Assembly (NCBI GenBank): GCA_025963715.1
Contig: JAOQAG010000006.1
Location: forward strand, 1 to 64,000
Source of the DNA: Bacteroidota bacterium
GTDB taxonomy: Bacteria > Bacteroidota > Bacteroidia > 2-12-FULL-35-15
Reading direction: 5' to 3'
DNA: 64,000 nucleotides
Position 1 is the first letter of the stretch. Every line of letters begins with the position of its first letter. The position numbers and the translations under genes are program-made. Below the pieces are notes generated by a model that searched no databases, had not been told where the DNA came from, and saw only the letters and a list, made by a program, of their open reading frames with translations. Below, one piece after another: positions 1 through 59,006 of this stretch.

Positions 1-136
1 AGGGCTTTTCGCCCGAAGCAATCTCACACCAGCATATAATCTAGAATGAGATTGCTTCGGGCGAAAAGCCCTCGCAATGACGTTCTTAAAATAATTTCTT
101 TTCATGGTGCAAAGTTCCGGATACTCATTTAATGTT
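1..136. repeat. Family A palindromic intergenic repeat, copy 1
   Basis: Bases 1-26 and 47-72 are perfect inverted complements around a 20-base loop (27-46), and the left arm runs off the window edge. Bases 73-136 match 16067-16130 with only a few differences, so this is a second copy of the element at 15982-16130. The loop is inverted relative to that copy (see findings). The remaining bases up to the gene at 260 show nothing I can name. Confidence 0.85.
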
Positions 137-259
137 TATTAAAACAGTAAGCTTGCTGGTTGAGCTGTGTCAAAAACCTATCCAATGGCTGACTGCTTCC
201 TTAAAAAGTGAGTAGCTTTACAAGCTGCCGGAGAATATCCCGGCTTAAAAACTACTCCA

Positions 260-3200
260 ATGAAAAAATTTTTACTACTTCTCTTTATTGTTTCCACGCA
301 TTCGATAATGGCACAATGCCTTTCGGGCAATTATACTATCGGTGGCGCTGCTCCGGATTATCCAACCATTACATCTGCTGTATCGGCACTCACGGCCAAC
401 GGTGTATGCGGCCCTGTTAATTTTAACATCCGTTCCGGCACGTATAATGAACAGGTCGTAATTCCGGCAATTACCGGAAGCTCGGCAACCAATACCATTA
501 CTTTTCAATCGGAGAGCGGCGACAGTACAGCAGTTGTACTTTCTTTTGCTTCAACGGCAGCTCTCAGCAATTATACTTTAAAGCTCAACGGTGCCGATTA
601 TTTTTCTTTTAAAAAGATAACCATCAAATCGCTGAACACAACATACGCAAGGGTTGTTTTTATTACAAATGGCGCCAATCATAATCTTTTTTTGCACAAC
701 GTTATTTTTGGGATCCCGAAACCAGGCTATACCTACCAAAATGAATTTGCATTGTTTTATTCCACAGCCAGTAACGACAATTACAATACGTACGATGGAA
801 ACCGGATGCTCAATGGCACCTTCGGCTTTTGCCTTGCGGGCATTAACATTCCAAATCCTGCAGTGGGAACGGTGATCAAAAATAATTTTTTCCAGGACCA
901 GGGTTGGGCGCCAATTGACCTTGTTTGTCACGGTTCCCCGGTGATCTCCGGAAATACGATCACAAGTAATTTTTCTGTTTATCTCTATTTGCAGGGCATC
1001 CGCCTGGAACAATGCCCGGGCAATTACCAGATCGTAAAAAATAAATTAGTGCAGGGAGGTATTTTCATTGTCAACTCCCAGGCTTCTCCTTCGGCGCACA
1101 GCCTTATTGCTAACAACATGGTTGCAGCAGCCAGCCATAGCGGTATTGATCCGTCTTATTATATTCATGCGCTGTACATTAATTATTCGAGTTATATTGA
1201 TATTGAATACAATTCCATCTGCCTGGCATCGGGCCCGGGAAAGTACACGGTAGATCTGGTTAACGCTCCTTTTGTTGATCTCCGCAATAATATCTTAGTG
1301 AGTAAGGTAAATGGCCCTGTTTTATTTTCTACAATAGCTCCGGTGATAGGCAATCATCTTACATCTGATTATAACAACGTTTATAACAGTGGAAGCGCCC
1401 CGCTTTTCAATTTCAATGGTGTCAGTTATTCTTCACTGGCGGCGTGGCAGGCTGCGCAGGGACAGGATCTGCATTCAAAAAACCTGGATCCTTATTTTAC
1501 ATCTCCAACTAATTTTCGTACCCAAAACGGGTTGCTGTTTGGTGCCGCCAATCCGGTTGCTTCTGTAACGGATGATATTGACGGCATTGTACGCAGCGCA
1601 GTTGCACCTGCTATTGGTGCGTATGAATTTCCATTACCAGCTGCTGATGCGGGTTTATTATCGTATAACGGACTTGTGCTTTCCTGCAACGGCGGCACCA
1701 TCCCGGTAACGGTAAAGCTGGTAAACGAAGGGGCTGGTACGCTTACATCCGCTACCATCAACTGGCAGGTAAACGGGATTGCGCAAACGCCATATCACTG
1801 GACGGGCACTTTAAATACACTGGACAGTACCACGGTATTGCTCGGTAATTATACTTTAACAACAGACCTGAGCCATACTATAAAATCATGGACAAGTAAT
1901 CCCAATGGTTTGCCCGATGTTACGAATACGAATGATACCCTTATTTTATCAAGCAGCTGCAGAACGGATGCTTCACTCAGCGCAATCATCCCATTTGTAA
2001 ATGTATGCGCGGGAACATTGCCGGTGCAGGTAAAATTAAAAAATCCGGGCAACAATACACTTACCAGCGCTACTATTGCATGGAAGGTAAATGGGGTAAG
2101 CCAAACGCCTTATAGCTGGATAGGAGCATTAAATCCGATGGACTCGGCAACAGTTACCATTGGCAATTATAATTTAGCGTCGTACACAACGTATGCTTTT
2201 AAAGCCTGGACACAAAATCCAAATTCTGAAACGGATGTTTTGCATAGCAATGATACGGCTACACTTGCCAACGTGCGCGCAGGCATGAGCGGCATGTATA
2301 CCATAGGCGGTGCAAGCCCTGATTTTGCTACGTTTACCGCTGCAGTGTCGGCTTTAAATACGTATGGTGTTTGCAGCCCGGTTGTGTTTAATGTCCGTTC
2401 CGGCACATATGATGAGCAGGTAAATATCCTTGTCATAGCGGGCGTTTCCCCGGCCAATACCATCACCTTTCAATCGGAAGCATTGGATAGTACCGCCGTT
2501 ATATTAACCAAGTCCGGGGCACCAGCGTATGTGTTACAAACACAATGTCCGTATATGATCATCAGAAAAATGACACTTAAAGCAGTTTCGCTTACAACGT
2601 CTATGGTAATTGCACTGTCCAGCGGAACTGGGGATGTTTTGCAGAACAATGTTATTCAGTCACCAATTGCATCAAGCATTTCCGGCCCTTTATTGGTTCG
2701 TATCGCCGGGGTTGCAAATACAGATCTTGTTTTCGATAAAAATGTATTTATTGGCGGTTCAATAGGAATAAACGCTTTGGCAAACGGTTCCCGTACAAGA
2801 GCCACAAATAATTTATTCCAGGATCAATATTCAAGCGCCATTTCTGTTTTGTACCAGGATTCATTAGTGGTGATTGGAAACAACATCAACACCACCGTTG
2901 GCGCAGGCAACTATACCGGCATTGTAATGCAGGTTTGCACCGGCAGGTTCATCATCTCTAAAAATAAATTAACACGCGGCGGTATTGCCGTATCAATTTA
3001 TAGTAATCCTGCCGTGCTTCCGTCGTTGATCTCCAATAATGTATTGTATACAAATACAGCACAGGTGCTGAATATTTCCACTTGCACCAATCTGAATATC
3101 ATTAACAACATCATCCGTTCCAACAGTACGGCGCCTGCTTTAACATTGTCGGGCATGGGTGTTGGCGTAACTATTTTAAATAATATTTTTTCAAATTATG

Positions 3201-6200
3201 CAGGCGGTTTGGTGATTTCTTATACCCCGGCAGGTGCTATTAATTTTAACCACAACGATTTGTACACCACCGGAACTACGCTTTGTTATTATGCTCCTAC
3301 CGGCTACCCCAACGTAACCACACTAGCACAATGGCAGGCAACGGGTTTCGATTTAAATTCCTACAATATTGATCCGCTTTTTGTTTCTCCTACTGATCTG
3401 CATCCACAAAGTAGTTATATGAATGGCAATGCTCTTGTGAACGCCTTTGTTCCAGATGATGTAAACGGAATGGCCAGAAATGCTTCAACACCTGATCTTG
3501 GCGCGTACGAATTTTCGCTTGCATTGAATGATGCCGCCACGCGCTCGTTTGCCGGTGTTCTTCCGCCCTGCGCAGGTATATCTGCAATTAAAGTAATTGC
3601 AGGCAATAGCGGCGACAATACTATTAACAGCATGACACTAAACTGGCAGCTGAACGGTGTATTGCAAGTCCCTGTAAATGTTACCGGCACTTTATCTCCC
3701 GGACATGATACCACGATCACACTCGGAACAAATAATTTTATAGCCGGTGCCGCATATGTTTTAAAAGCCTGGGTATCCAATCCCAATGGTGTTGCAGATG
3801 CTGCTGCTTCCAACGATACTATTATCAAAACAATATATACAGGCATGGGGGGAGTTTATACCATTGGCGGTGCTTTACCCGATTACAGTACATTTAATGC
3901 TGCTATCAGCGACCTGATCCTGAAAGGCGTTTGCAGCGCGGTTACATTTAATGTACGCGCGGGCACTTATCCCGAGCAGCTTTCTATTCCTGCCATACAA
4001 GGCAGCAGCGCTGTTAATACCATTACGTTTCAATCGGAAAGCGGGATCAACACTTCTGTAATTGTTAGTAACAATGCAGCGGGAAATACATTTACTATTT
4101 TATTAAACAACGCAGATCACATTCTATTTAAAAGCATGAGCATTAAAAAAACAAATGGCTCTACTACTATTGCTAAGGATATAAATACGATCATCAGCCT
4201 GTTTAATCATTCGGAATATAATGTGATCGATAACAACATCATTACCGGTGCAACCGGGTATTGCATCTCCACAGGCAGCACTGCATCTACCGGATCGGGA
4301 CACAATGTGTTTTCGAACAATGATTTTACTAATGGCGGAGGCGGCATTAACATAAACGGAACAGCAATAAATGCATGCAACAAAGTGCTGAATAATACAT
4401 TCCACAATTCGCCGGGAGCGGTAACTGTAAATAATCAGGACAGCATCATCGTTTCTTCTAATACTATCTTGCAAACCACTACAGCACCGGCTTACACGAT
4501 CAGCATCACACTAAGTAAAAATATTTTTGTAACCAAAAATAAGCTGGACATTATCAGCAACGGAATTGGCATTACGCTCACTGCGGACAATACGGGTTTG
4601 GTTGCCAATAATTTTGTTCATTGCGGTGCTTCTCCAACATACACATTGGCAGGAATGGGATTTGGCGGCAGCTCGGGCACGTTCAACGTGATCAACAATA
4701 CAGTGAACATGGAGGATCCGCACATTAACAGCCTTGGTGTATCATTCAGCGGCACCAGGCTTAATTTTAAAAACAATATTGTGATCAATGCCGGTGGCGG
4801 AAAAGCAATTTATTGTGTGAACGGAACGCTTTTTAACGGCTTTTCCAATTACAATAATTTATATTCTACAGGCGCCTTTTTAGGATCATCAGGATCGGTA
4901 AGCCGCACCAACCTTACTGCATGGCGCGCTGCTACGGGCATGGATTCCAATTCTGTTTCGTTAAATACTACTTTTGTTTCGCCGGGCGATTTGCATATGA
5001 GCAGCTATTATACAAACAATGTAGGAATGCCTGTAAGCGCATTGATCACTGATGATGTTGATGGCGACATGCGCAGCACCACCATGCCCGATATTGGTGC
5101 GGACGAATACACTGTAACGGTTACGGACGCATCGCTGCTTGCGTTTGCGGGCGTGTATCCTTCCTGCGCGGGATCAACGCCGGTAAATGTACAGCTGCTC
5201 AACAGCGGTGGCCCCGTGCTGACTGGCAGTGCAATTCACTGGACAGTAAACGGTGCTATACAACCGGTTTATAACTGGTCGGGCACTTTGTTAAGCGCTG
5301 ATACGACTATTGCAACAATTGGGAATTATAATTTTGTTTCGGGCACGCTGTACAACATTACTGCCTGGGTGGAAACGGCTAATGGTATACCTGACGGGCT
5401 GCTTCCGGGCGATACGGCAATGATGCCCAATTACAGCCCGGCACTTTCCGGAACATATACCATTGGCGGTACAGCTCCCAATTATGCAACGTTTAATGCT
5501 GCTGTAGCCGATCTGAGATTAAAAGGTATTTGCGGCCCGGTTATATTTAATGCAAGGCCGGGCACGTACACGGAAGAAGTAACCATCCCATACATCGCCG
5601 GAACATCTGCTGTAAATACTGTTTTATTTCAATCGGAAAACGGCGACAGTACTTCTGTTGTATTGCGGTATGATGCATTGGGATTCGAAGCTGCATTTAC
5701 ATTGCAGTTTGATTCTACCGCTTATGTAACTGTGAAAAAAATAACCATTACCGGCTCTTCCTCCGATCCTTCCCTTTATGGAAGCCTGGTTTTCTTTACG
5801 GAGCATAATCAGCACATCAGCTTTTCGAATAATTTTGTTAATGGAATTATCGGGGGCGCAAACTCGATTTATTCAGGTGGTTATAACAACGATTATATTA
5901 CTATTAGCAATAACAGGATCGCGAATGGCTCCTACGGAATTTATTTTGAAGGCTCTTTTTATTATTATCCCTTCACGGGACAGGAGCCCTCGAAAGGCTT
6001 AGTAATAAGCAACAACTATTTCCTGGGCCAGGCTGCGGATGCCATCCATCTTTTTTACCACAGTAGCCCTGTTATTACACGAAATACTATCACTGCCACC
6101 GGATACGCAATTTCATTTAGAACCGTAAGCGGCGTACCGGTTATTTCCTATAATAAATTGAACGGCGACATCCGGTTTAATTCTGTGATCTCAACGGCAG

Positions 6201-8017
6201 CAGCAAGAGGGCGCATCTTCAATAATATGATCTCTACGCAGGGTTATGGAGTTTGGTTTGAGTCGAACGTACACTACCAGGACTTGTTTTATAATTCGAT
6301 ATACACGTATGGCGGAGGCATTGTAATGCAAACCAGCTCTAACATCCGGAGCCTGAACAACAGCTATTCAGCCACAGATGTAAGTATTTATACTTACCCG
6401 GCAGTTCTTGCTTATGATACTACGGATCTCGAAGTATCGGACCATAACAACTACTATGCAGCGGGAATTGCTCTTGGCGGAGTTGGCTATGTGGGCGTCC
6501 CTAACTTAAATGCATGGCAACTCGCTACTGCACTGGATTCTAATTCGGTAAGCGGAATGCCATCGTTCTACTCAACTACCGATCTGCATTTGAACCTGGA
6601 TACGGTACTAAGCAATCGTGGAGTTCCTATTACCGGCATTACCGATGATATTGACGGCGATCCGCGGAGTACAACTACGCCTGATATTGGTGCTGACGAA
6701 TGCAGCTGTCCCGCACTGGATGCAGCATTGAATAGCTTCCATCCGTTTGTATCTGCCTGCAGCATTACACAACCGGTAAGCGTGCATTTTCAAAACACCG
6801 GGCCTGTAACGCTTCATACGGCAGTCTTTAACTGGTCGGTAAACGGCGTATTACAAACACCGCTTAACTGGACGGGGAACTTAATTTCCTTAGATACAAC
6901 GTCTGTACTTTTAGGGAATGATGTGCTTGCTCCGGGCATAAACATTATAAAAGCATGGGTTTCCAATCCGAACGGAATAACGGATCCTGTGCCTTCGAAC
7001 GATACGATCATACAAACCATTACACTGCCAAATCCTGTAATGACAAGCGGTGCAGGAGCGGGAAGCATTTGCACCGGCAGCCCGTTAAACATTGCGTTGA
7101 CGAGCACTATTCCGGCCAGCTATACCTGGTATGCAACAAACAATGTAAACACAACCGGGGAAAGCACTACTGCACAAACAGGAAATATGATTTCCGACAT
7201 CCTTATTAATTCATCAGCGGTTGCACAAATACTAACATATACGGTAACACCAGTATCGATGGGCTGTGCGGGCGCTTCACAAATTATTACAGTTACAGTG
7301 GATGTTCCGCCGGTTGCAACGATCATACTTTCGGGCGCTTCTTCTTTTTGCCAGGGAAATTCAGTAACGTTAACTTCCGCATCAGCGAGCGGAAATACAT
7401 GGTCTACCGGCGATACAACACAAAGCATTATTGTTAATTATTCGGGAAGCTTTACGGTAAACAATAGCAATGCCTGCGGCTCAGTTACATCTGCAGTGGT
7501 AACAACTACCATGAACTTATATCCATCAATGCCTGTAATTATGCAGGGAGGGGATACTTTGTACTCCGGCGTAACCAGCGGCAACCAGTGGTATTTGAAT
7601 GGAGTGGCCATACCGGGAGCAACCGGCCAGTATTATGTTCCGGTACAGGATGGTAATTATTCGGTGAGTGTTACTGTAGCCGGGTGTACCTCCACATCTG
7701 CTGATTATGTTTATACACTATCTGTGCATACAGGCGTGCAGGATGTAAATGCAAACATGTCCGTCAGTATTTATCCGAATCCTTATTATGATCATACAGA
7801 AATAAGTTATGCATTAACTGCTAAATCGAGAGTGAACATTGAGGTGTATAATGCACCGGGAGAAAAAATAAGCGTGCTTGTAAATGCGGATCAACCGGCA
7901 GGAAACTATCATTATGTTTTTTCTGCAAAGGAAAACGGTTACGGTGCAGGAGTTTATTTTGTAAAAATTACAATTAATGGAAGATCAATAATGAAACGGA
8001 TCGTGGAGATGCAATAA
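260..8017 (+). CDS. Giant secreted T9SS protein with four beta-helix/CARDB-like modules
   Basis: A 2585-residue exported protein with signal peptide at residues 1-19 (ends SIMAQ). Four homologous modules start near residues 22, 673, 1194 and 1730. Each opens with a YTIGG..P(D/N)(Y/F).T motif and FN.R.GTY.E, continues as an Asn-rich parallel beta-helix-like region (NNI, NNF, I.NN spacing), and closes with DD(I/V)(D/N)G..R....P.(I/L)GA.E. CARDB-like beta-sandwich units (WQVNG, W.VNGV.Q.P) follow each module, two after the first and one after each of the others. PKD/Ig-like domains lie at about 2257-2450. The last ~80 residues start at a YPNP motif and end MKRIVEMQ, a typical type A T9SS sorting domain. 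Inferred to be a cell-surface or secreted adhesin or polysaccharide-binding protein; no catalytic residues are evident. Confidence 0.9.
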   Translation: MKKFLLLLFIVSTHSIMAQCLSGNYTIGGAAPDYPTITSAVSALTANGVCGPVNFNIRSGTYNEQVVIPAITGSSATNTITFQSESGDSTAVVLSFASTAALSNYTLKLNGADYFSFKKITIKSLNTTYARVVFITNGANHNLFLHNVIFGIPKPGYTYQNEFALFYSTASNDNYNTYDGNRMLNGTFGFCLAGINIPNPAVGTVIKNNFFQDQGWAPIDLVCHGSPVISGNTITSNFSVYLYLQGIRLEQCPGNYQIVKNKLVQGGIFIVNSQASPSAHSLIANNMVAAASHSGIDPSYYIHALYINYSSYIDIEYNSICLASGPGKYTVDLVNAPFVDLRNNILVSKVNGPVLFSTIAPVIGNHLTSDYNNVYNSGSAPLFNFNGVSYSSLAAWQAAQGQDLHSKNLDPYFTSPTNFRTQNGLLFGAANPVASVTDDIDGIVRSAVAPAIGAYEFPLPAADAGLLSYNGLVLSCNGGTIPVTVKLVNEGAGTLTSATINWQVNGIAQTPYHWTGTLNTLDSTTVLLGNYTLTTDLSHTIKSWTSNPNGLPDVTNTNDTLILSSSCRTDASLSAIIPFVNVCAGTLPVQVKLKNPGNNTLTSATIAWKVNGVSQTPYSWIGALNPMDSATVTIGNYNLASYTTYAFKAWTQNPNSETDVLHSNDTATLANVRAGMSGMYTIGGASPDFATFTAAVSALNTYGVCSPVVFNVRSGTYDEQVNILVIAGVSPANTITFQSEALDSTAVILTKSGAPAYVLQTQCPYMIIRKMTLKAVSLTTSMVIALSSGTGDVLQNNVIQSPIASSISGPLLVRIAGVANTDLVFDKNVFIGGSIGINALANGSRTRATNNLFQDQYSSAISVLYQDSLVVIGNNINTTVGAGNYTGIVMQVCTGRFIISKNKLTRGGIAVSIYSNPAVLPSLISNNVLYTNTAQVLNISTCTNLNIINNIIRSNSTAPALTLSGMGVGVTILNNIFSNYAGGLVISYTPAGAINFNHNDLYTTGTTLCYYAPTGYPNVTTLAQWQATGFDLNSYNIDPLFVSPTDLHPQSSYMNGNALVNAFVPDDVNGMARNASTPDLGAYEFSLALNDAATRSFAGVLPPCAGISAIKVIAGNSGDNTINSMTLNWQLNGVLQVPVNVTGTLSPGHDTTITLGTNNFIAGAAYVLKAWVSNPNGVADAAASNDTIIKTIYTGMGGVYTIGGALPDYSTFNAAISDLILKGVCSAVTFNVRAGTYPEQLSIPAIQGSSAVNTITFQSESGINTSVIVSNNAAGNTFTILLNNADHILFKSMSIKKTNGSTTIAKDINTIISLFNHSEYNVIDNNIITGATGYCISTGSTASTGSGHNVFSNNDFTNGGGGININGTAINACNKVLNNTFHNSPGAVTVNNQDSIIVSSNTILQTTTAPAYTISITLSKNIFVTKNKLDIISNGIGITLTADNTGLVANNFVHCGASPTYTLAGMGFGGSSGTFNVINNTVNMEDPHINSLGVSFSGTRLNFKNNIVINAGGGKAIYCVNGTLFNGFSNYNNLYSTGAFLGSSGSVSRTNLTAWRAATGMDSNSVSLNTTFVSPGDLHMSSYYTNNVGMPVSALITDDVDGDMRSTTMPDIGADEYTVTVTDASLLAFAGVYPSCAGSTPVNVQLLNSGGPVLTGSAIHWTVNGAIQPVYNWSGTLLSADTTIATIGNYNFVSGTLYNITAWVETANGIPDGLLPGDTAMMPNYSPALSGTYTIGGTAPNYATFNAAVADLRLKGICGPVIFNARPGTYTEEVTIPYIAGTSAVNTVLFQSENGDSTSVVLRYDALGFEAAFTLQFDSTAYVTVKKITITGSSSDPSLYGSLVFFTEHNQHISFSNNFVNGIIGGANSIYSGGYNNDYITISNNRIANGSYGIYFEGSFYYYPFTGQEPSKGLVISNNYFLGQAADAIHLFYHSSPVITRNTITATGYAISFRTVSGVPVISYNKLNGDIRFNSVISTAAARGRIFNNMISTQGYGVWFESNVHYQDLFYNSIYTYGGGIVMQTSSNIRSLNNSYSATDVSIYTYPAVLAYDTTDLEVSDHNNYYAAGIALGGVGYVGVPNLNAWQLATALDSNSVSGMPSFYSTTDLHLNLDTVLSNRGVPITGITDDIDGDPRSTTTPDIGADECSCPALDAALNSFHPFVSACSITQPVSVHFQNTGPVTLHTAVFNWSVNGVLQTPLNWTGNLISLDTTSVLLGNDVLAPGINIIKAWVSNPNGITDPVPSNDTIIQTITLPNPVMTSGAGAGSICTGSPLNIALTSTIPASYTWYATNNVNTTGESTTAQTGNMISDILINSSAVAQILTYTVTPVSMGCAGASQIITVTVDVPPVATIILSGASSFCQGNSVTLTSASASGNTWSTGDTTQSIIVNYSGSFTVNNSNACGSVTSAVVTTTMNLYPSMPVIMQGGDTLYSGVTSGNQWYLNGVAIPGATGQYYVPVQDGNYSVSVTVAGCTSTSADYVYTLSVHTGVQDVNANMSVSIYPNPYYDHTEISYALTAKSRVNIEVYNAPGEKISVLVNADQPAGNYHYVFSAKENGYGAGVYFVKITINGRSIMKRIVEMQ

Positions 8018-8171
8018 AAAAATTAAATGATTATCGGAAAGTTTGTACCATAAAAATAATTTACTTTAAGAACGTCATTGTCCGAAGGACTCATTTATAC
8101 TTAGAGGTATTTATGCTACTAAATTTGTAAAAATAACAGAGGATTCATTCTGCAGGCTCTTTCGGGGCTGC

Positions 8172-8271
8172 GCAGCAATATAGATCCATCAGTAATTGGT
8201 TCGAGATTTCATCAGTAGCCTCCACAGCCAATAAAATCAAATCTTTCAGGAAACTGAGAGGCTTTTTTTGT
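8172..8271 (+). repeat. Direct repeat DR1 (pair with 14529-14620)
   Basis: The block TTGGTTCGAGATTTCATCAG, then AGCCTCCACA and a GAAA-loop hairpin, recurs in the same orientation near 14547. Weaker similarity (AGCAATAT) extends upstream. The GGTTCGA core resembles a tRNA T-loop and AGCCTCC an acceptor strand, but no cloverleaf can be drawn. The rest of the 8018-8379 gap holds a fragment of the family A flank on the opposite strand (about 8066-8080) and two terminators. Confidence 0.75.
8243..8269 (+). terminator. Rho-independent terminator with GAAA loop
   Basis: CTTTCAG and CTGAGAG pair as a 7-bp stem (one G-T pair) around a GAAA tetraloop, followed by C and seven T. It lies about 230 bases beyond the stop of the gene ending at 8017 and inside repeat DR1. 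The second repeat copy carries a mismatched version. Confidence 0.7.
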
Positions 8272-8330
8272 TTTTACAGGTTTACACGGCTTAAACCATT
8301 TCGACTTTTTACTTGAACTTTGACTAACGA

Positions 8331-8361
8331 AAAGCAGCCACCCTTCCGGATGGCTGCTTCT
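8331..8361 (-). terminator. Terminator of the MopE-like gene
   Basis: AAGCAGCCA and TGGCTGCTT form a perfect 9-bp stem with a 10-base loop. On the minus strand a short T-rich tail follows. It sits about 20 bases after the stop codon at 8380. Confidence 0.75.
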
Positions 8362-8379
8362 TCAATTGTATTAGAATGA

Positions 8380-11300
8380 TTAACGGATGATGGAGATCTT
8401 CACCGTTTTTACTGTTTTATTGGTGCTGATCTTTACAAAATAAATTCCCGTTGAGCAATTGTTCAGATCGATGCTGTATGTGTTACCCGGATCAGGCAGC
8501 GGATTTTTTGCGGTGTAAACAATATTTCCGTTCAGTGTAGTAACACTGATGGCCGATACCTGCTGCTGCTTACCGGCATCAATCCGGATGGAGCCATTAG
8601 AAGGATTAGGATATACTGAAACATTTTGCGATTCATTGATTGCTGCAACATCCGTGCAAACGCTCACTGTTAACGTATCGTTTGCAGCGCTGGTGCAGGT
8701 CCCATTTGTAACAGTGTATGTAAAGATTACTTCGCCCATGATTCCGGAAGGATCAAACTGATTGCCTGTTACCTGTGCGCCGGAATAAATGCCGCCGGAT
8801 GGTGCGCCGCCTGTTAATGTATATGCATTGTAGTTGCAAATAAGTGAAGTGCCAAAATCAAATGCTACGGCAAGTGTTTGCCCTATGGCATTATCGGTAT
8901 CATCGCAATCGTTTGCATTTAAAACATATCCGGACAAGGCAAAGCATTGTGTCTGCATCTGTGCAGGATCACCAAAGCCATCATTGTCGGCATCTGCAAA
9001 CCATTGTGTATTGGGATTGATGGCTGCGTTGTTATCATCGCAATCGGCATTATTGGCAAGATACCCTAAAGGCTGATCGCATTGTGTAAGTGTAACAGCC
9101 GGATTTCCAAAACCATCATTATCATTATCTGCAAACCAGGTTGTATTTGGGTTATGCGCTGCGTTGCTATCATCGCAATCGGTATTATCGGCTACGTATC
9201 CTGCAGGCTGGATGCATTGTGTAAGTGTAAGAGCTGCATCTCCGAAACCATCATTATCGGCATCAGCAAACCATACAAGGTTGGGGGTAACAGCCGCATT
9301 GTTATCATCACAATCGGTATTATTGGCTACGTATCCCAAAGGCTGTGTGCATTGTGTAAGTATTCCAACAGGGTTTCCAAAACCATCATGGTCATAATCG
9401 TAAAACCATTGTGTATTGGGGTTGATGGCTGCATTGTTATCATCGCAATCGGTATTGTTACGTACAGACCCGAAAGGCTGAGTGCATTGTGCAACCATTG
9501 CTGCCGGATTTCCAAAACCATCATTGTCGGCATCTACAAACCATTGTGTGGCCGGGTTGAGGGTTGCATTACTATCATCACAATCGGTATTATCAAGGAT
9601 ATATCCTAAAGGCTGCGCGCATTGCGTAAGCGTAACAGTTGCGTCACCGTAATTATCGCCATCCGCATCTTCAAACCAAATGGTAGCGGGGTTGATGGCG
9701 GCGTTGTTATCATCGCAATCGGTATTATCAGCTACGTATCCCAAAGGCTGAGTGCATTGTGTACGTGTAACAGTGGCATCACCGTAAGTATCACCGTCAT
9801 CATCTGCAAACCATATGGTGTTAGGATTTATAGCCGCATTTGTATCGTCACAATCGGAATTATCGGTAGTGGATCCTGCAGGCTGCACGCATGCATAGAT
9901 AGGGCTGGCGTTATCACCAAATCCATCGGCATCCGCGTCTGTATAAAAGGTATTGTATAAAAAATCAAACCCGCTTAAGGAATCATTTCCATAATGGCTC
10001 AGGATCTTCACATCGCCGGAAGTATCGCAACCCACTACTGCCGTAATGGTATGCTCGTCCACTACTACAAATGATTGCACATTTAATCCGCCGATCTGCA
10101 CGGCATCTATCCCGTAAAAATAATTACCGTTGATCTGGATATTGGCGCCATACCCTGCAGCCATTGTATTTACCGAAGTAATATCGGGTGTAACCACATG
10201 AAATGAAACAGCACCGTTGGCACCGCCATTATATTCCTGTACCTGAAATTTAACTTTTGTAGTGTCGTTCAAGATCCCATGCCATATATCAGTGTGTGAA
10301 TCACAACACTGGTCGTGATAGAAAACCTGCGTTTCATTAATGTACATGGCGGCAACATCATCATGATTATCAACATTTATCATATAAATGTTATCGGGGA
10401 AACCCTGCCGTTTGTATTGAAATGAAAAATAATCAACATCAACCGGCTCTCCCATGTATCCCGATGCTGACGAAGGAGAATTATTGGGATCCCATACAAG
10501 CGTTGAATTAAAATCAATACCCGGCTCGGTATAATATCCCATGTAGGTATCAAAGTTAAAACCATTAAAGGCATGTGCATTCCATATATTATTGCCATAA
10601 GGAGCAAGCTCATTCACTATTACATAATGTCCTGCAGGTGAAACCGGAGAAGGTGTAATATCCGGCATTGCATTAAAGGAAATGCTGTTTACCCCCATGT
10701 CAATTCCATCAAGGAAAGCAGCGAGGGGATTCATATCTATTGAGAGCCAGAAATAATGGTTGCTGCTGCTGGTAAATGTTACGGGACTAAAAGTAAGCGT
10801 TCCAATATCGGAGGATGAAGCGATCTCTGTTGCATTTGTAAAAACAGAATCGGGCCCGGAATACAGGTGATACATTGCAATATCATTTATGTTGGTGGTG
10901 CCTGCGGGAGAAAACGAAAGGCTATTCAACACAAGCGGGCTTAAGTTCCCGGTTGTAAGGATATCCATCCGGAGTACAGGCACATTCATTTGTGTAGTTG
11001 CAATCTGATCGAATGGATAAATCGGGTGAACCATCTGCACCGTGTTATACACCATAGCAACAGGAGGAAGAACGGTAAAGGTATAATCTTCATAATCAGC
11101 ATAATTGCCGCTGCAGGGAGTAGGTGCGCCGGTTGAATAAGCGCCTACAACCCTCATCCGGTAATTACCGGCAGGAGCAGCGGCAGGCACGGTGATTGTT
11201 CCTGTGAGAAGCGCCCCGCCGGCTGTGTATGTCATAAACATTCGCTCGGCTGCGTCAAACGTTGCATTGTTATTCCAGTCAATCCACATCGCAATGTTCA

Positions 11301-11553
11301 GATCATAACCGCTGCCGTTTTGAATAGCGTATGACAGGGTTTGCCCCGCATAGCCGGAAGCGCTGAGTGTTGAGGAGAAGTCGGTGTAGAGCACACCGCT
11401 TGGTGTAACATTATTAAGATCGGCACCTACCTGTACCCTTGAAATTCCTATTCCGCAACAGGCGAAGCCGGTAGGCGTGCATTGTGCAAACACTTTCGCA
11501 CACATCAGAACAATAAGGATCGCAAGGCCTGTTTTTTTGTAAAATCGCATCAT
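8380..11553 (-). CDS. Secreted T9SS protein with GEVED domain and eight MopE-like metal-binding repeats
   Basis: 1057 residues with an N-terminal signal peptide ending CAKVFAQ. Residues about 55-165 form a GEVED-type domain (MWIDWNNN, PAGNYRMRV, DYEDYTFTV). A beta-sandwich region of the kind seen in BNR/sialidase-like surface proteins follows. Eight tandem ~42-residue repeats then carry D.D.D(G/N)..G(D/N), QC.QP.GY and NTDCDDNNAAINP. This matches the MopE/'putative metal-binding motif' family; the Asp-rich loops suggest Ca2+ binding. The C-terminus begins VSVYPNPSNG and ends VKISIIR, a T9SS type A sorting domain. The repeats are also conserved at DNA level (about 8870-9950). Probably an extracellular structural or adhesive protein; no enzyme domain seen. 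Confidence 0.9.
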   Translation of the reverse strand: MMRFYKKTGLAILIVLMCAKVFAQCTPTGFACCGIGISRVQVGADLNNVTPSGVLYTDFSSTLSASGYAGQTLSYAIQNGSGYDLNIAMWIDWNNNATFDAAERMFMTYTAGGALLTGTITVPAAAPAGNYRMRVVGAYSTGAPTPCSGNYADYEDYTFTVLPPVAMVYNTVQMVHPIYPFDQIATTQMNVPVLRMDILTTGNLSPLVLNSLSFSPAGTTNINDIAMYHLYSGPDSVFTNATEIASSSDIGTLTFSPVTFTSSSNHYFWLSIDMNPLAAFLDGIDMGVNSISFNAMPDITPSPVSPAGHYVIVNELAPYGNNIWNAHAFNGFNFDTYMGYYTEPGIDFNSTLVWDPNNSPSSASGYMGEPVDVDYFSFQYKRQGFPDNIYMINVDNHDDVAAMYINETQVFYHDQCCDSHTDIWHGILNDTTKVKFQVQEYNGGANGAVSFHVVTPDITSVNTMAAGYGANIQINGNYFYGIDAVQIGGLNVQSFVVVDEHTITAVVGCDTSGDVKILSHYGNDSLSGFDFLYNTFYTDADADGFGDNASPIYACVQPAGSTTDNSDCDDTNAAINPNTIWFADDDGDTYGDATVTRTQCTQPLGYVADNTDCDDNNAAINPATIWFEDADGDNYGDATVTLTQCAQPLGYILDNTDCDDSNATLNPATQWFVDADNDGFGNPAAMVAQCTQPFGSVRNNTDCDDNNAAINPNTQWFYDYDHDGFGNPVGILTQCTQPLGYVANNTDCDDNNAAVTPNLVWFADADNDGFGDAALTLTQCIQPAGYVADNTDCDDSNAAHNPNTTWFADNDNDGFGNPAVTLTQCDQPLGYLANNADCDDNNAAINPNTQWFADADNDGFGDPAQMQTQCFALSGYVLNANDCDDTDNAIGQTLAVAFDFGTSLICNYNAYTLTGGAPSGGIYSGAQVTGNQFDPSGIMGEVIFTYTVTNGTCTSAANDTLTVSVCTDVAAINESQNVSVYPNPSNGSIRIDAGKQQQVSAISVTTLNGNIVYTAKNPLPDPGNTYSIDLNNCSTGIYFVKISTNKTVKTVKISIIR

Positions 11554-11716
11554 TTTATATCGTTTTAATAAGGTTTATTGACGATGTAAAATTGAGGCGA
11601 TTCTGGAAATTGAACAATAGTGGGTAACCACTATATTGATTAAGGAATTGGGATTAAGGAATGGGGAATTGGGACGGAGGAATTGGGATTTGAGGAATTA
11701 AAGAATAGAAAAAGAA

Positions 11717-11875
11717 GGTTATGTTGTAGAATAATGTTGCTAATGGAAACAAAAACACTCCAGACTTGTCATCCCGGGCCTGACCCGGGATCTGCCAATT
11801 AAGAACTGTGTAGGCGCTGCAAGCATTTATGAGATCCCGGGTCGGCGCCCGGGATGACAGTATTGTTTGTGAACA
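11717..11875. repeat. Family B MITE-like palindromic element, copy 1
   Basis: Arms TGTCATCCCGGGCCTGAC and the matching GGGATGACA side form a palindrome at 11767-11859. The ~40-base core between them is almost identical to that of the copy at 15816-15907. The left flank starts GGTTATGTTGTAGAA at 11717, which is the terminal motif of copy 2 as well. The rest of the 11554-11897 gap is low-complexity GGAATTGGGATTAAGGAAT text with no coding sign. Confidence 0.75.
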
Positions 11876-11897
11876 TTAACTGTAATCCAAAACTTTC

Positions 11898-12539
11898 TTA
11901 GAGTTGGTTCTTCGAATGAATCGCAAATTTCAACAATGAATTTTTTCCTTCCAGCTTTAATTTTTTCACCATGTTGGAACGGTGATTATCAACCGTGTTG
12001 GGGCTTACAAATAAAAGCTCCGCAATTTCCGGTGTGGTTTTACTTTCTGCGATCAGCTTGAGAATCACTTTTTCGGTAGCGGTTAAAGCATCCAGTTCCG
12101 GAATGACAACTCCCCTATCCTTTGCCACCAGTAGCTTTTCAATGCCCGGACTAATAAATTTTTCGCCTTTCAACACTTTTTTAATGCAGAGGATCAGCTC
12201 TGTGATCGCATTGTCTTTTAACAAATAACCCATCACGCCGATCTCCATTGCATTATTAAAAAAATCTTTTTCGCGGTGCATTGTCAGCAAAATAAATTTT
12301 GTGTCCGATTTTTCTTTCAGCACTTTGTTACATACGTCGAGCCCGCTCAATCCCGGCATCTGGATATCGAGTATCGCAAGATCCGGCCGCTTTGCCACAA
12401 TGCTTTTGTACGCTTCCACTCCATCCGAAACTTCAGCAACAATTTCAAGATCTTCTATTTCCCGTAAAATATCAACCAGTCCTTTTCTGAAAATAGGATG
12501 ATCATCGGCAATCACGGCGGTGTATTTCATTGTATGCAA
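11898..12539 (-). CDS. LuxR/NarL-family response regulator
   Basis: 213 residues. The N-terminal receiver domain carries the acidic pair in IADDHP, the phospho-acceptor Asp near residue 58 (LAILDIQMPG), a T in LLTMH and a K in LLKDN. A LuxR-type helix-turn-helix follows (LTATEKVILKLIAE, TPEIAELLFVSPNTVDNHR). It starts two bases after the stop of the sensor kinase gene, so the two are co-transcribed and almost certainly cognate. An alternative ATG at 12530 gives MKYTAVIADDHP, the usual family start. Target genes are unknown; the adjacent secreted protein at 8380 is a possible one, by proximity only. Confidence 0.95.
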   Translation of the reverse strand: MHTMKYTAVIADDHPIFRKGLVDILREIEDLEIVAEVSDGVEAYKSIVAKRPDLAILDIQMPGLSGLDVCNKVLKEKSDTKFILLTMHREKDFFNNAMEIGVMGYLLKDNAITELILCIKKVLKGEKFISPGIEKLLVAKDRGVVIPELDALTATEKVILKLIAESKTTPEIAELLFVSPNTVDNHRSNMVKKLKLEGKNSLLKFAIHSKNQL

Positions 12540-12541
12540 AT

Positions 12542-14419
12542 TTAAAAAGGTAAGGTAAAAATATATTTGGTCCCTTTGCCCGGAGCGGTTTCCAGCTCAA
12601 AACTTCCTTTGAGATAATTCACTCTTTCTTCGAGGTTGAGCATCCCGAATGAGCGCTGTGATTTTTTAGCCATCATCAGCTTGTCGAAACCTTTGCCGTT
12701 ATCCTGTATGATCAGCTCAATGGTATTCTCCACTTTAGTGGCAGAGATCCGCAATGCTTTTGCATCTGCATGTTTTATCACATTGGTAACGCATTCTTGT
12801 ATAATGCGGTAATAATTGATGAGCTTATCGGGAGCAATATTTTTGTCAAATGCTTCCAGGTCGTGGCTCATAAATAGTTCGGAGCTTGCCTTTACTTTTT
12901 CGCTTAATCCTTCCACCGCGGCAATCAGTCCATACTTCTCCAGCTGGTTCGGATACAGGTCTTTGGACAGATTTCTTACTTCTTCCAGCGTTTCGTCTAC
13001 CGAAGCCATTAAACCGGGATCGTTGTTTTTGACCAGCTGGTTCCTGATGAACAGGATATTTTGCCCGATACTATCATGCAGCTCTTTCGAGATGCGTTGT
13101 TTTTCCGTTTCCTGCGAGATCAATAGCTGTTGCGAATATTGTTCACGAAGTTTCAGGCTTTTGCGGTTATTGTAAAACATAAAACCGGCTGCAACCAGCA
13201 GCAATAACATGGCGGCCAAAACAATAATAAAATTACGCGTATTCTTCTGGATCCGGTTCTGCGCTTCCAGTCCGATCACTACTTTTTCATGCTCTGCTTT
13301 TTGTGCCGCTTCCTTCTTATCAAACTCATAGTTCATTTCCGTTTCTACACTCTTTTTGGTATTTGCTTCATTAAAAATACTATCCTTTGCAGCGACGTAT
13401 TTTTTGTAATATTCAAATGCCTGCTTCGTATCACCAAGCGCTGTATACAAAAGGCTGATCTGCTCATGCGTTTCCATGACGCCCGGACGGTCGTTCAATG
13501 CTTCGGAAAGTGCAAGCGATTGAAAAAGTACCGCTTTTGCTTCGGCATATTTTTTAGTGCTGATGTATACGGAGCCCAGGCTCGAAAACAACATCGGGCT
13601 GTTTGTACGTTCTCCGCTGATGCCGTTATACAGTAATGACTTTTTTAAATATATTACAGCCGTATCAAAATCGGTAATTGCTCCGGCTGCAATTCCTGCT
13701 TTTAGCTGGCTATCTCCCCTGTCTTTATAAGCCATGCCTATATTACCAAGCGCCATGCTTATTCCGGCGGTGTCTTTCACTTGTGTATAGGCCTTCAGGC
13801 AAATGGAATAATAGTGGACTGCCATTTCAAAATTTTTCATTTCGCTGTATTCAGCACCTATATTCCCGTAGATCGTTCTTTCCTCATCACCGTAATCTAA
13901 TAATTTGGCAAGGGCAAGGGCTTTGTAATTATACTGCAGTGCTTTTTGATGATCCTTTAGATCGCCGTAGTTTATTGCAATATCGTTGAATACACATAAG
14001 ATCCCGTATTGGTAATTAATACTTTCATGAATCTTCAATGCTTTAAAATAAAAAACGAGTGCTTTCGAATAATCACCCAGGCCATTGTAGTAATATCCTA
14101 AATATCCATATCCTATGGCCTGTTGCTTTAAAAAATAGGTTTTTAGTCCATTGGAAGCAATTGGCTTTTGCAGGTTGGAAGTGCTTAGCTCAATGATCCT
14201 TTTTATATATTTCAGTTCCATGGGATCATCCATGATCTTATTATAAGCATCAATAAGCATGGTGTCGGCAGTAACATCCCGCTGTGTATTTTCCAGCGCA
14301 TGAATCCTCTTTAGCAACCGTTCTGTTGTTTTATTCTGTGCAGATAGCTCCACAGAAAACACGAAACAGAACACCAGCAAAAAGAAAAAAAAGGATGGAG
14401 AAAAAACAGGTTTCGTCAT
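12542..14419 (-). CDS. Membrane sensor histidine kinase with TPR sensor domain
   Basis: 625 residues. Signal sequence (ends VELSAQ), then a periplasmic array of tetratricopeptide repeats over roughly residues 100-350 (YYNGLGDYSKALVFYFKAL, YGNIGAEYSEMKNFEMAVHYY). A transmembrane helix follows near 390-410 (FIIVLAAMLLLLVAAGFMF). The HisKA_3 dimerisation helix has phospho-His at about 448 in ELHDSIGQ, and a HATPase_c domain shows N-box QECVTNVIKHA and G1 box DNGKGF. This is the NarX/DesK-like kinase class. It precedes and nearly abuts its response regulator. The ligand sensed by the TPR domain is unknown. Confidence 0.95.
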   Translation of the reverse strand: MTKPVFSPSFFFFLLVFCFVFSVELSAQNKTTERLLKRIHALENTQRDVTADTMLIDAYNKIMDDPMELKYIKRIIELSTSNLQKPIASNGLKTYFLKQQAIGYGYLGYYYNGLGDYSKALVFYFKALKIHESINYQYGILCVFNDIAINYGDLKDHQKALQYNYKALALAKLLDYGDEERTIYGNIGAEYSEMKNFEMAVHYYSICLKAYTQVKDTAGISMALGNIGMAYKDRGDSQLKAGIAAGAITDFDTAVIYLKKSLLYNGISGERTNSPMLFSSLGSVYISTKKYAEAKAVLFQSLALSEALNDRPGVMETHEQISLLYTALGDTKQAFEYYKKYVAAKDSIFNEANTKKSVETEMNYEFDKKEAAQKAEHEKVVIGLEAQNRIQKNTRNFIIVLAAMLLLLVAAGFMFYNNRKSLKLREQYSQQLLISQETEKQRISKELHDSIGQNILFIRNQLVKNNDPGLMASVDETLEEVRNLSKDLYPNQLEKYGLIAAVEGLSEKVKASSELFMSHDLEAFDKNIAPDKLINYYRIIQECVTNVIKHADAKALRISATKVENTIELIIQDNGKGFDKLMMAKKSQRSFGMLNLEERVNYLKGSFELETAPGKGTKYIFTLPF

Positions 14420-14528
14420 GCAGCAGGCTTTCTGTAAATATACGCGTAATTGTTAGTACAAACAATCGGCCTTAACAGGTTGCTTTTCGCCCTTATCTGA
14501 TTAAAAACGAGAGCAGCCATCAACTAGA

Positions 14529-14620
14529 AGAGCAATATCATTCAACAATTGGTTCGAGATTTCATCAGCAGCCTCCACAAAACAAAGACAAGCTTTTCAG
14601 GAAACGGAGAGACTTTTTCC
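14529..14620 (+). repeat. Direct repeat DR2 (pair with 8172-8271)
   Basis: Same block as DR1, with AATTGGTTCGAGATTTCATC at 14547 onward, then GCAGCCTCCACA and a CTTTTCAGGAAACGGAGAGA hairpin with a stem mismatch. It is followed by TATGTATATTTT, which could be the decayed start of a GIY-YIG-type reading frame (YVYF), though no gene remains. The rest of 14420-14744 shows no gene. Confidence 0.75.
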
Positions 14621-14744
14621 TTTATGTATATTTTCGATTTGCAAATTAAAATGAAAGTAATAAACAATGCAATATTCAGTAAAATGGCGGAGGCCGTAAA
14701 ATAAACCCAGCGGGACGTTATTCCTAACTATTCCGGTTCAACTA

Positions 14745-15506
14745 CTAACGATGTACAATGCGATGGTATTTTATTTTTTTAATTAAAGATTTGAGTTGCT
14801 TTTTTTCTTTTTCCTTTAACCTGGAAATATAATTGTACATTTTTGCAGAAACCTGCTGGTGAGAAAGAAAACAAATAGCAGAATGACGATCATGCCATTC
14901 GCCAATTTTTTTTTGCAGTTTGTTTATATAACCTGTGTTTAATTCAAAAGCGCTTTGTGTTTTCGCCGGTAAAATATCATATATATTCATTATTTTTTTT
15001 AATCTCGTTCTAAGATGATGCAGGTTTTCTCCTTCTTTTTTATTATCAATTTCCTTTTTTGATTTATTCATTTGTTTTCTAAAAAATCCTATAATTGATT
15101 TTTTGCCGGGGATCCTTGCAGGCAAACAGAATTTTTCACGAAAGCTTCCGACTATTTTAATGTACCCGGGAATATTTTTCCTGAATAATTTCTGACATTT
15201 CTTTTTTTTCTTTACCAATTGAGTAATGAGTTTTTCAGGGGGATGAGGGATTGTATCAAGTTGCTGAACATGCATTTGAAGCTCCCGTATACCACCCGCA
15301 TCATGGAATAAAGACTTCAGTTCATCTTTATAATATTTTTCTTTATTCGTTTTTTCAACAAAATAAAATACTGCTTTTATTTTTTTTATTTCGATTCTCA
15401 AATGATGAAGATGCGTCAATTCATTATCTTCCTTATAGATCTTAAGAGCTTGTTCAATAGATCTAAGCCACTCATCGACATACTCATTTAATATACCCGT
15501 TTTCAC
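14745..15506 (-). CDS. CHAD-domain protein
   Basis: 253 residues, highly basic, with two internally similar helical halves. Each contains the CHAD signature (LHHLRIEIKKIKA near residue 32 and LHHLRTRLKKIMNIYDIL near 162), where conserved His, Arg and Lys line a basic surface. CHAD domains bind inorganic polyphosphate and often accompany CYTH triphosphatases; no CYTH partner is present in the window. The gene stands alone between repeats and is AT-richer than its neighbours. A polyphosphate-binding role is inferred from the family. Confidence 0.85.
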   Translation of the reverse strand: MKTGILNEYVDEWLRSIEQALKIYKEDNELTHLHHLRIEIKKIKAVFYFVEKTNKEKYYKDELKSLFHDAGGIRELQMHVQQLDTIPHPPEKLITQLVKKKKKCQKLFRKNIPGYIKIVGSFREKFCLPARIPGKKSIIGFFRKQMNKSKKEIDNKKEGENLHHLRTRLKKIMNIYDILPAKTQSAFELNTGYINKLQKKIGEWHDRHSAICFLSHQQVSAKMYNYISRLKEKEKKQLKSLIKKIKYHRIVHR

Positions 15507-15763
15507 ACCTGTTCGTATTTAATTTATTGATTGATTATACTGCTTTTAACTCTTTATACAACGCAATTTAAGAGCCAGAGGGGATTGTGAAAACAATTCG
15601 TCAATTTTCCATTGTAGTCTGCTAAATGTGGAAAAAATGCACGATGAAGTCTAAAATACTTTTTGGAAGGCGCAAAAAAGTACGGGAATGATATCCTGAA
15701 CACGGTGGATGATTAAAATTAATTGAAATCGGGAAGTTTATACCAAATGCTTTTATTTTGTAT

Positions 15764-15955
15764 GGTTATGTTACAGAACATTATTGTTTATGGAAACAGA
15801 AATACTTTCTTAAGCTGTCATCCCGGGCTTGACCCGGGATCTGCCAATTAAGAACTGTGTAGGTGCTGCAAGTATTTAACAGATCCCGGGTCAAGCCCGG
15901 GATGACAGTATTATTTGTGAATATTGTAAAAAAAACATTTTACTACAACATAACC
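15764..15955. repeat. Family B MITE-like element, copy 2 (most complete)
   Basis: The ends carry inverted GGTTATGTT at 15764 and AACATAACC ending at 15955. Inside lies a palindrome with arms TGTCATCCCGGGCTTGACCC and its complement (15816-15907) flanking a ~43-base core shared with copy 1. No coding capacity. With the family A hairpin just downstream it fills most of the 15507-16183 gap. Confidence 0.8.
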
Positions 15956-15981
15956 TTTTGTATTGCTAATTTTAATTTGTG

Positions 15982-16130
15982 CGTCATTGCGAGGGCTTTT
16001 CGCCCGAAGCAATCTCATTCTGGATTATATACTACTGGTGTGAGATTGCTTCGGGCGAAAAGCCCTCGCAATGACGTTCTTAAAATAATTTCTTTTCATG
16101 CTGCAAAGCTCCGGGTACTCATTTAATGTT
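15982..16130. repeat. Family A palindromic repeat, copy 2
   Basis: Two perfect 36-base inverted arms (15982-16017 and 16041-16076) surround a 23-base loop. Bases 16077-16130 match 83-136 near the window start. RNA from either strand would fold into a very stable hairpin. It lies about 54 bases from the end of the MFS gene and could end transcription from it, though there is no T-tract. Confidence 0.9.
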
Positions 16131-19143: not shown

Positions 19144-19585
19144 CGTAAAGGGAATTATAGATTGAAATTATAATACTAGTTGCAGCACAAAAATAAGAAT
19201 TATGTTTTGATTTTTTAGAAAAAAATTTCATGCAAAGCTAAGAAGATGCAAATGCTGTGTATGCTGTGTGAATTATTTCTCGTGGAAATGCAGCGTTTGC
19301 TGGGTGTATGTTAACCGCAGAGCGCGCAAAGAAGGCGCAGAGATCGCAGAGGCGCGTATGTTTTTTTCTCGCAGAGACGCAGAGTTCGCAGAGGCTGTGT
19401 GTTTACTGTAATTATACTGTATGTTTTTGAGGCTTCGCTTTCGCAGAGGTTTTTGTTTTAATCCTAAATCCCAATTCCTCAATCCTTCATTCAAAAATCC
19501 TTTTACGCCCTGCCTTATGTTTTCTTTTGTGCCTTATGTGGTGGAAATACACACAGCACAATCCTAATTCCTTAATCCTAATTCC
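19144..19585. repeat. Gene-free gap with family D and low-complexity repeats
   Basis: The gap contains AACCGCAGAGCGCGCAAAGA-type and CGCAGAGACGCAGAGTTCG words (19313-19400), then TTATGTTTTCTTTTGTGCC (19517 on), a one-sided copy of the arm seen at 58906-59006. AATCCTAATTCCTTAATCC text follows up to the next gene. No coding sequence seen. Confidence 0.6.
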
Positions 19586-58905: not shown

Positions 58906-59006
58906 TCCACCACAAAAGGCACAAAAGAAAACATAAGACGTAGCACCAAAACAGTATATTGTTTCACACACAGCCTTATGTTTTCTTTTGTGCCTTTTGT
59001 GGTGGA
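58906..59006. repeat. Family D perfect inverted repeat
   Basis: Two 32-base perfect arms (58906-58937 and 58975-59006) around a 37-base loop. The arm reads TCCACCACAAAAGGCACAAA then AGAAAACATAAG. A one-sided copy lies at 19517 and degenerate nested copies at 62261-62481. Reading frames on both strands here are artefacts. Confidence 0.8.

Follow-up and report, generated by a model that had tools for sequence, protein, structure and literature searches.

Both loop orientations occur in REP-dimer hairpins of a Bacteroidota MITE, probably through inversion in place

The window (the whole stretch of DNA analysed, 64,000 nt) starts at base 1 of contig C24 of a 4.91-Mb Bacteroidota-type assembly. 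Two of its proteins carry T9SS type A sorting domains, i.e. a protein of 2585 aa (positions 260-8017, + strand) and one of 1057 aa (8380-11553, - strand), the gene for the latter containing a tandem repeat with a period of 135 nt (45 codons) at approximately 8944-9918. T9SS sorting domains are a trait of the Bacteroidota. The 2585-aa gene is adjoined by R flanks of a MITE, one just before it (83-127) and one just after it (8018-8072), in opposite orientations. The window opens inside the first copy of a long hairpin, hereafter hairpin A, which is therefore seen without its left flank: the contig starts within the left arm (1-26, the inner 26 of 36 nt), which is followed by a 20-nt loop, CACCAGCATATAATCTAGAA (27-46), the complete 36-nt right arm (47-82), and the R flank of the carrier MITE (83-127), ending in the TIR ..GGTGCAAAGTTCCGGATACTCA. 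The second copy comprises a left arm (15982-16017), a 23-nt loop (16018-16040), a right arm (16041-16076), and the R flank with its TIR (16077-16121). Its two 36-nt arms are 100% complementary, and the folding energy is -48.2 kcal/mol (z -16.7). Copy 2 is part of a composite MITE of approximately 399 bp (15723-16121), in which the left TIR TTGAAATCGGGAAGTTTATACCA (15723-15745) is followed by a different hairpin, hairpin B (left arm, 15815-15843; 36-nt loop in its standard orientation, 15844-15879; right arm, 15880-15908), a linker, hairpin A copy 2, and the R end. All of these elements lie on the + strand, as does a further copy of hairpin B in standard orientation with one loop end altered (L150; approximate span, 11767-11853). 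The R flank and TIR at 8018-8072 lie on the - strand and represent a relic in which a short hairpin remnant, GTCCTTCGGAC, takes the place of hairpin A. Another perfect hairpin, with 32-nt arms and a 37-nt loop, is located at 58906-59006, and a related arm is found elsewhere, at 19514-19545. None of the Rfam families reached its gathering score in the window.

A first-pass annotation of this DNA had proposed that the two copies of hairpin A share their arms and right-hand flank and differ by an inversion of the loop only. Sequence comparison identified the same 36-nt arm in both copies, and positions 47-136 and 16041-16130 align in the same orientation with 97% identity over 90 nt, so that the similarity lies on the right, the side that had been named. 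The loop of copy 1 has the CACC orientation relative to the R flank and that of copy 2 the inverted, TTCT orientation; aligned with the reverse complement of the copy 2 loop, CACCAGTAGTATATAATCCAGAA, the copy 1 loop matches at 18 of 20 positions, with an additional 3-nt indel. The loop is thus inverted relative to the flank as described, but the two copies are paralogous insertions and not two states of one locus, and the shared flank belongs to a longer repeat, of which it forms the R half.

Hairpin A forms a family of approximately 90 copies in the assembly, with 36-nt arms, loops of 19-23 nt, and a whole length of approximately 92-95 nt. A pattern for the inner arm matched the genome 95 times in the forward and 103 times in the reverse direction, compared with no match for the reversed-pattern control, and an exact 12-nt core combined with a loop of 14-26 nt gave 91 hairpins. 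From 101 loci and the window, 87 hairpins were extracted (86, to which window copy 1 was then added); the arms formed part of the search patterns, so that copies with diverged arms are under-sampled, and on contigs C23-C51 the fetched set comprises hairpins with at least one flank pattern. Most copies lie between two unlike flanks, L and R, each with a terminal TIR of approximately 22 nt. In several loci (L033, L034, L035:4753, L046, and the end of C6), one arm of a hairpin A variant carries approximately 30 extra nt (CTGTGCCACCGCTAAAGC..CGCGG) before the foot. Four hybrid dimers (L022, L050, L053, and L062) combine a type A arm with an arm that differs in its middle but not in its foot and core, which gives the impression of an exchange of arms between REP types.

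Each arm of both hairpins folds on its own into a small stem-loop, preceded by a CGTC or TGTC tag that stays unpaired. A CGTC-tagged REP is defined by a CGTC, TGTC, or CCTC tag at one end, a stem of 8-9 bp that starts with AT, a loop of 4-5 nt, and, in many cases, a CCA tail. The A arm reads CGTC-ATTGC..GCAAT-CTCA and the B arm TGTC-ATCCCGGG..CCCGGGAT-CTG, the tag being outside the stem in both. The B unit has an 8-bp stem, a 5-nt loop, and the tail CTGCCA; the A unit, with an interrupted stem of 5+4 bp, a 5-nt loop, and the tail CTCA, is a less exact fit to the CGTC REP than B. In the parts of the source consulted, CGTC-tagged REPs are described from five phyla including Bacteroidetes, without a dedicated transposase, and as units that pair mostly as head-to-head dimers with the tag on the outside (Di Nocera et al. 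2013, PMC3733652). The hairpins studied here share with those dimers the CGTC or TGTC tag, a stem starting with AT, a 5-nt loop in each unit, and the head-to-head arrangement with outward tags, and their conserved spacers fall within the length of 20-100 nt that is given for most of the spacers there, which are conserved in head-to-head dimers (PMC3733652). The foot tag differs from the GTAG-type tag of GTAG REP/RAYT systems. By these features, the arms fit the CGTC-tagged REP superfamily, and hairpins A and B are head-to-head REP dimers in which the loop is the spacer between the partners. Unlike the dimers of PMC3733652, as far as that source was seen, those described here lie inside a TIR-bearing MITE, consist of two near-identical units, and have spacers in both orientations; the passages of that paper in which 'inver' occurs deal with inverted repeats, and neither 'flip' nor 'template switch' was found in the text available. 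The inner core was found in at least 98 stretches from genomes of many phyla, and hairpins with the core GAAGCAATCTCA/TGAGATTGCTTC and various loops (L169-L248) are present in Chloroflexi, Patescibacteria, Melainabacteria, Elusimicrobia, Rickettsia, Coxiellaceae, and many Bacteroidota. The exact core plus loop pattern had no match in a set of named genomes to which the genome under study possibly does not belong, which does not imply absence, and when the literature was searched for part of the hairpin sequence, the matches listed were all unrelated papers.

Most copies of hairpin A are located inside the TIR-bearing MITE, which is bordered by AT-rich target duplications of approximately 9-11 bp. 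The TIRs, TGACTATCGGAAAGTTTATACCA and TGAGTATCCGGAACTTTGTACCA, have 79 matches in the genome. In the 24 copies with both TIRs, the strings shared just outside them are often 9-11 nt long and AT-rich, with a mean longest length of 8.3 nt compared with 5.1 nt for shuffled partners (maximum of 6.0 in 500 shuffles). TIRs together with target duplications indicate double-strand cut-and-paste movement, and the carrier is accordingly classified, from its sequence, as a putative DDE-type MITE that would have spread through the genome by a DDE-type route. It resembles bacterial MITEs in being short, in having TIRs and a target duplication, and in lacking coding capacity, but differs from them in holding internal REP dimers with flipping loops. 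In a search for an autonomous parent through pairs of TIRs, the widely spaced inverted pair that was examined (on C5) contained no transposase; this pair was rejected as a parent, as it consists of separate short elements flanking a long reading frame that looks histidine-kinase-like. The autonomous parent may be missing from the assembly. When orthologous insertions were sought in sister species by comparing the long MITE with same-genus genomes, full-length matches were found only in the present genome (G000), and 15 of the 35 others matched, mainly over the hairpin. In two MITE copies (window 8018-8072 and L293:914-1021), the hairpin has shrunk to a remnant, and these copies probably arose by palindrome deletion.

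The orientation of the loop was scored with the R flank placed on the right (CACC..., C; TTCT..., T). After eight of the 87 hairpins without exactly one R flank had been dropped, 79 copies were orientable, 44 being C and 35 T (binomial p 0.37). Inside contigs the ratio is 29 C to 30 T among 59 copies; the 20 copies at contig ends (15 C and 5 T) are not independent, several sharing one 127-nt assembly node, and are not part of the interior count. The inversion of the loop between the arms that had been proposed from two copies is thus supported across the family; the single common orientation that would have refuted it is clearly absent. Inside contigs, both orientations are found in every subtype of the R flank (Ra, 15:14; Rb, 9:14) and of the L flank (Li, 15:15; Lii, 7:7; Liii, 1:1). 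A 20-nt loop that is identical letter for letter in nine copies is in the T orientation in four and in the C orientation in five, and another identical loop is present in five copies (two T and three C). In Mantel tests with the 59 interior copies, the sequence of the loop was correlated with both the R flank (r 0.36, p 0.0006) and the L flank (r 0.30, p 0.0008), and the two flanks with each other (r 0.40, p 0.001). Orientation was correlated with neither flank (R, r 0.01, p 0.11; L, r -0.01, p 0.82) and was only weakly linked to the sequence of the loop (r 0.04, p 0.019), which suggests flipping without full erasure of history. The same picture was obtained with 69 of the 79 orientable copies, the other 10 having short flanks. 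In 29 of the 59 interior copies, the nearest relative is oppositely oriented. A loop that tracks the flanks, combined with an orientation that does not, is the pattern expected if loops turn in place faster than copies diverge, and the inversion would have followed insertion.

The first-pass annotation had also suggested REP/RAYT-type movement. In one reading of this kind, a RAYT-like (Y1 HUH) single-strand process would fix the orientation at insertion, with no later flipping. The REP-like nature of the arms agrees with such a process, and two Y1_Tnp genes are indeed present in the genome. However, none of the three REP motifs sought was found in approximately 3.2 kb around either gene (L117 and L118), the carrier is a MITE with TIRs and target duplications, and in half of the cases the nearest relative has the other orientation. 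We therefore retain the REP-like arms and regard a RAYT-like origin of the orientations as very improbable.

Ectopic recombination or gene conversion between copies is another route to a reversed loop, because palindromic arms would let the loop of another copy enter either way. The linkage between the L and R flanks, real but incomplete (r 0.40), is compatible with such exchange, as are the existence of hybrid dimers with two different arms and the presence of an unusual 23-nt loop in both L066 and window copy 2, which have the same R type and different L flanks. Free exchange, however, would weaken the association of both loop sequence and loop orientation with the flanks equally, whereas only orientation has lost it; the tracking of the flanks by the loop indicates that loops are not freely exchanged between copies. 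Arms of 36 nt are also short for RecA-type exchange. We consider this explanation unlikely, although it is the one among the alternatives to which we give the most weight.

The ends of contigs bear on a third alternative, namely that short-read assembly has set the orientation of the loops at random. These elements contain or adjoin at least 26 contig ends, and C24:1 and C19:1 each share with the end of C11 an overlap of exactly 127 nt, which is the k-mer of the assembler. Moreover, two contigs, C23 (end, 98902; L074) and C32 (end, 29186; L085), double back through hairpin A onto their own flank, with 89 and 92 paired nt, one mismatch, and pairing that continues exactly to the contig end; such paths require reads that join the same flank to both ends of the loop. 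These ends speak for an assembly artefact, but a k-mer of 127 nt exceeds the hairpin of approximately 92-95 nt, so that the junctions between flank and loop of single-copy loci are resolved, and the 29:30 ratio holds for the 59 copies inside contigs. An artefact is thus a poor explanation of the two orientations.

Hairpin B has 29-nt arms and a 36-nt loop. At 30 of its 33 places, namely those fetched as loci, 16 copies have the standard order X-S-Y, 4 the flipped order Y-S-X, 9 have a single flank called and fit the standard order, and 1 is symmetric (Y-S-Y). The loop is therefore flipped in 4 of 29 orientable copies (approximately 6:1), a ratio that differs from that of hairpin A (Fisher p 0.0009). 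Three of the four flipped copies are located at contig starts, and the fourth (L162) lies inside a contig. An exact match to a 28-nt probe at 23 of the 33 places suggests that B is young, and it looks younger than hairpin A. Two B copies have the same flank on both sides, L140 (C2:3246, Y-Y) and L061 (C17:68, X-X), forming longer palindromes that may have arisen as inverted duplications of the snap-back kind. In the same-genus genome G002, one pair of copies with the same left flank has opposite loops. Heterodimers of unlike REP partners, in which only a short inner arm is perfect, served as controls: all 14 are in one orientation (11 from two metagenome-assembled genomes and 3 from G022), which differs from the 30:29 of hairpin A (Fisher p 0.0005), although these controls are few, come from few lineages, and share ancestry.

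Flipping is seen with two different arm sequences but not in short-arm dimers, and it concerns a segment of only 20-36 nt; these results favour a process that would require only long matched arms rather than a sequence-specific enzyme. The Bacteroidota are rich in DNA that is inverted by tyrosine recombinases, and a conservative, site-specific inversion by such a recombinase would also place the loop in both orientations. Nevertheless, the arms of A and B are unrelated in sequence and both flip, and a segment of 20 bp is too short for the synapsis of two crossover sites; among the readings weighed here, an inverton is the one that we hold to be the least probable.

We propose instead that the loops of these REP dimers invert in place, after insertion of the MITE, by reciprocal template switching between the arms, a reading to which we assign a probability of approximately two in three. 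A nascent strand copying the first arm would jump to the fork's other template strand, where the arm sequence is identical, copy the loop backwards, and return in the second arm. When one arm serves as the template for the other, the same switching would also preserve the near-perfect match between them. Both A and B have long perfect arms and differ among copies by inversion of the spacer alone, the features by which template switching is recognized. The arms were compared in 72 of the 81 copies with full-length arms (the other nine have one or both arms of another type): two substitutions are shared by both arms of one copy, compared with 0.02 expected, and 23 occur on one arm only, which lends weak support to homogenisation of the arms within copies.

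RecA-independent inversion at inverted repeats has been the subject of earlier work in E. coli. In Saccharomyces cerevisiae, according to the portions of the report available, template switching inverts the spacers of inverted repeats and homogenises their arms (PMC8604942). The likeness to the present hairpins lies in perfect arms with only the spacer inverted; the yeast cases described there, however, number 10 and concern coding genes and short spacers (2-5 substitutions) (PMC8604942), whereas here spacers of 20 and 36 nt occur in dozens of copies belonging to a single repeat family, with a ratio of 1:1 in A. Hairpin-linked minute inversions of chloroplast DNA also resemble the flipping of the loops: in trnH-psbA, a loop of 25-27 bp between inverted repeats of at least 18 bp is described, in the part of the source seen, as flipping repeatedly, also within species (PMC2903610). 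That case concerns one orthologous locus across plants, unlike the many paralogous copies in one bacterial genome found here (PMC2903610). Among papers available without subscription, our search for spacer inversion or microinversion at bacterial REPs or hairpins listed none that describes it for CGTC REPs.

The fold-back ends of C23 and C32, together with the ends of C12 and C32, which have a rare R variant in common and carry opposite loops differing at one base, hint at mixed loop states in the sequenced sample. Fold-back chimeras from library preparation would look like the ends of C23 and C32. It is conceivable, though we regard it as doubtful, that flipping is continuous in living cultures and that a single locus therefore has both orientations side by side; the MITEs with their REP dimers would then serve one bacterium as dozens of inversion counters, parallel and reversible, or even as weak regulatory switches. 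If so, the fold-back ends and the opposite loops of C12 and C32 would be the footprints of mixed reads.

Between flanks that stay the same, the loops are found both ways round, in a ratio of 1:1 in hairpin A, the older of the two, and of approximately 6:1 in hairpin B, the younger. Inversion of hairpin spacers has so far been known from single loci, and many replicate hairpins are available here in one genome. One system combines two designs (36-nt arms with a 20-nt loop and 29-nt arms with a 36-nt loop), different ages, and heterodimer controls, so that the way in which template-switch inversion varies with arm length, loop length, and time is readable from sequence and directly testable. Turning in place may be the reason for the scrambled look of REP-dimer spacers, and such loops should be used with caution as characters in alignments or phylogenies. 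The hairpin family thus provides a natural record of hairpin rearrangement in bacteria.
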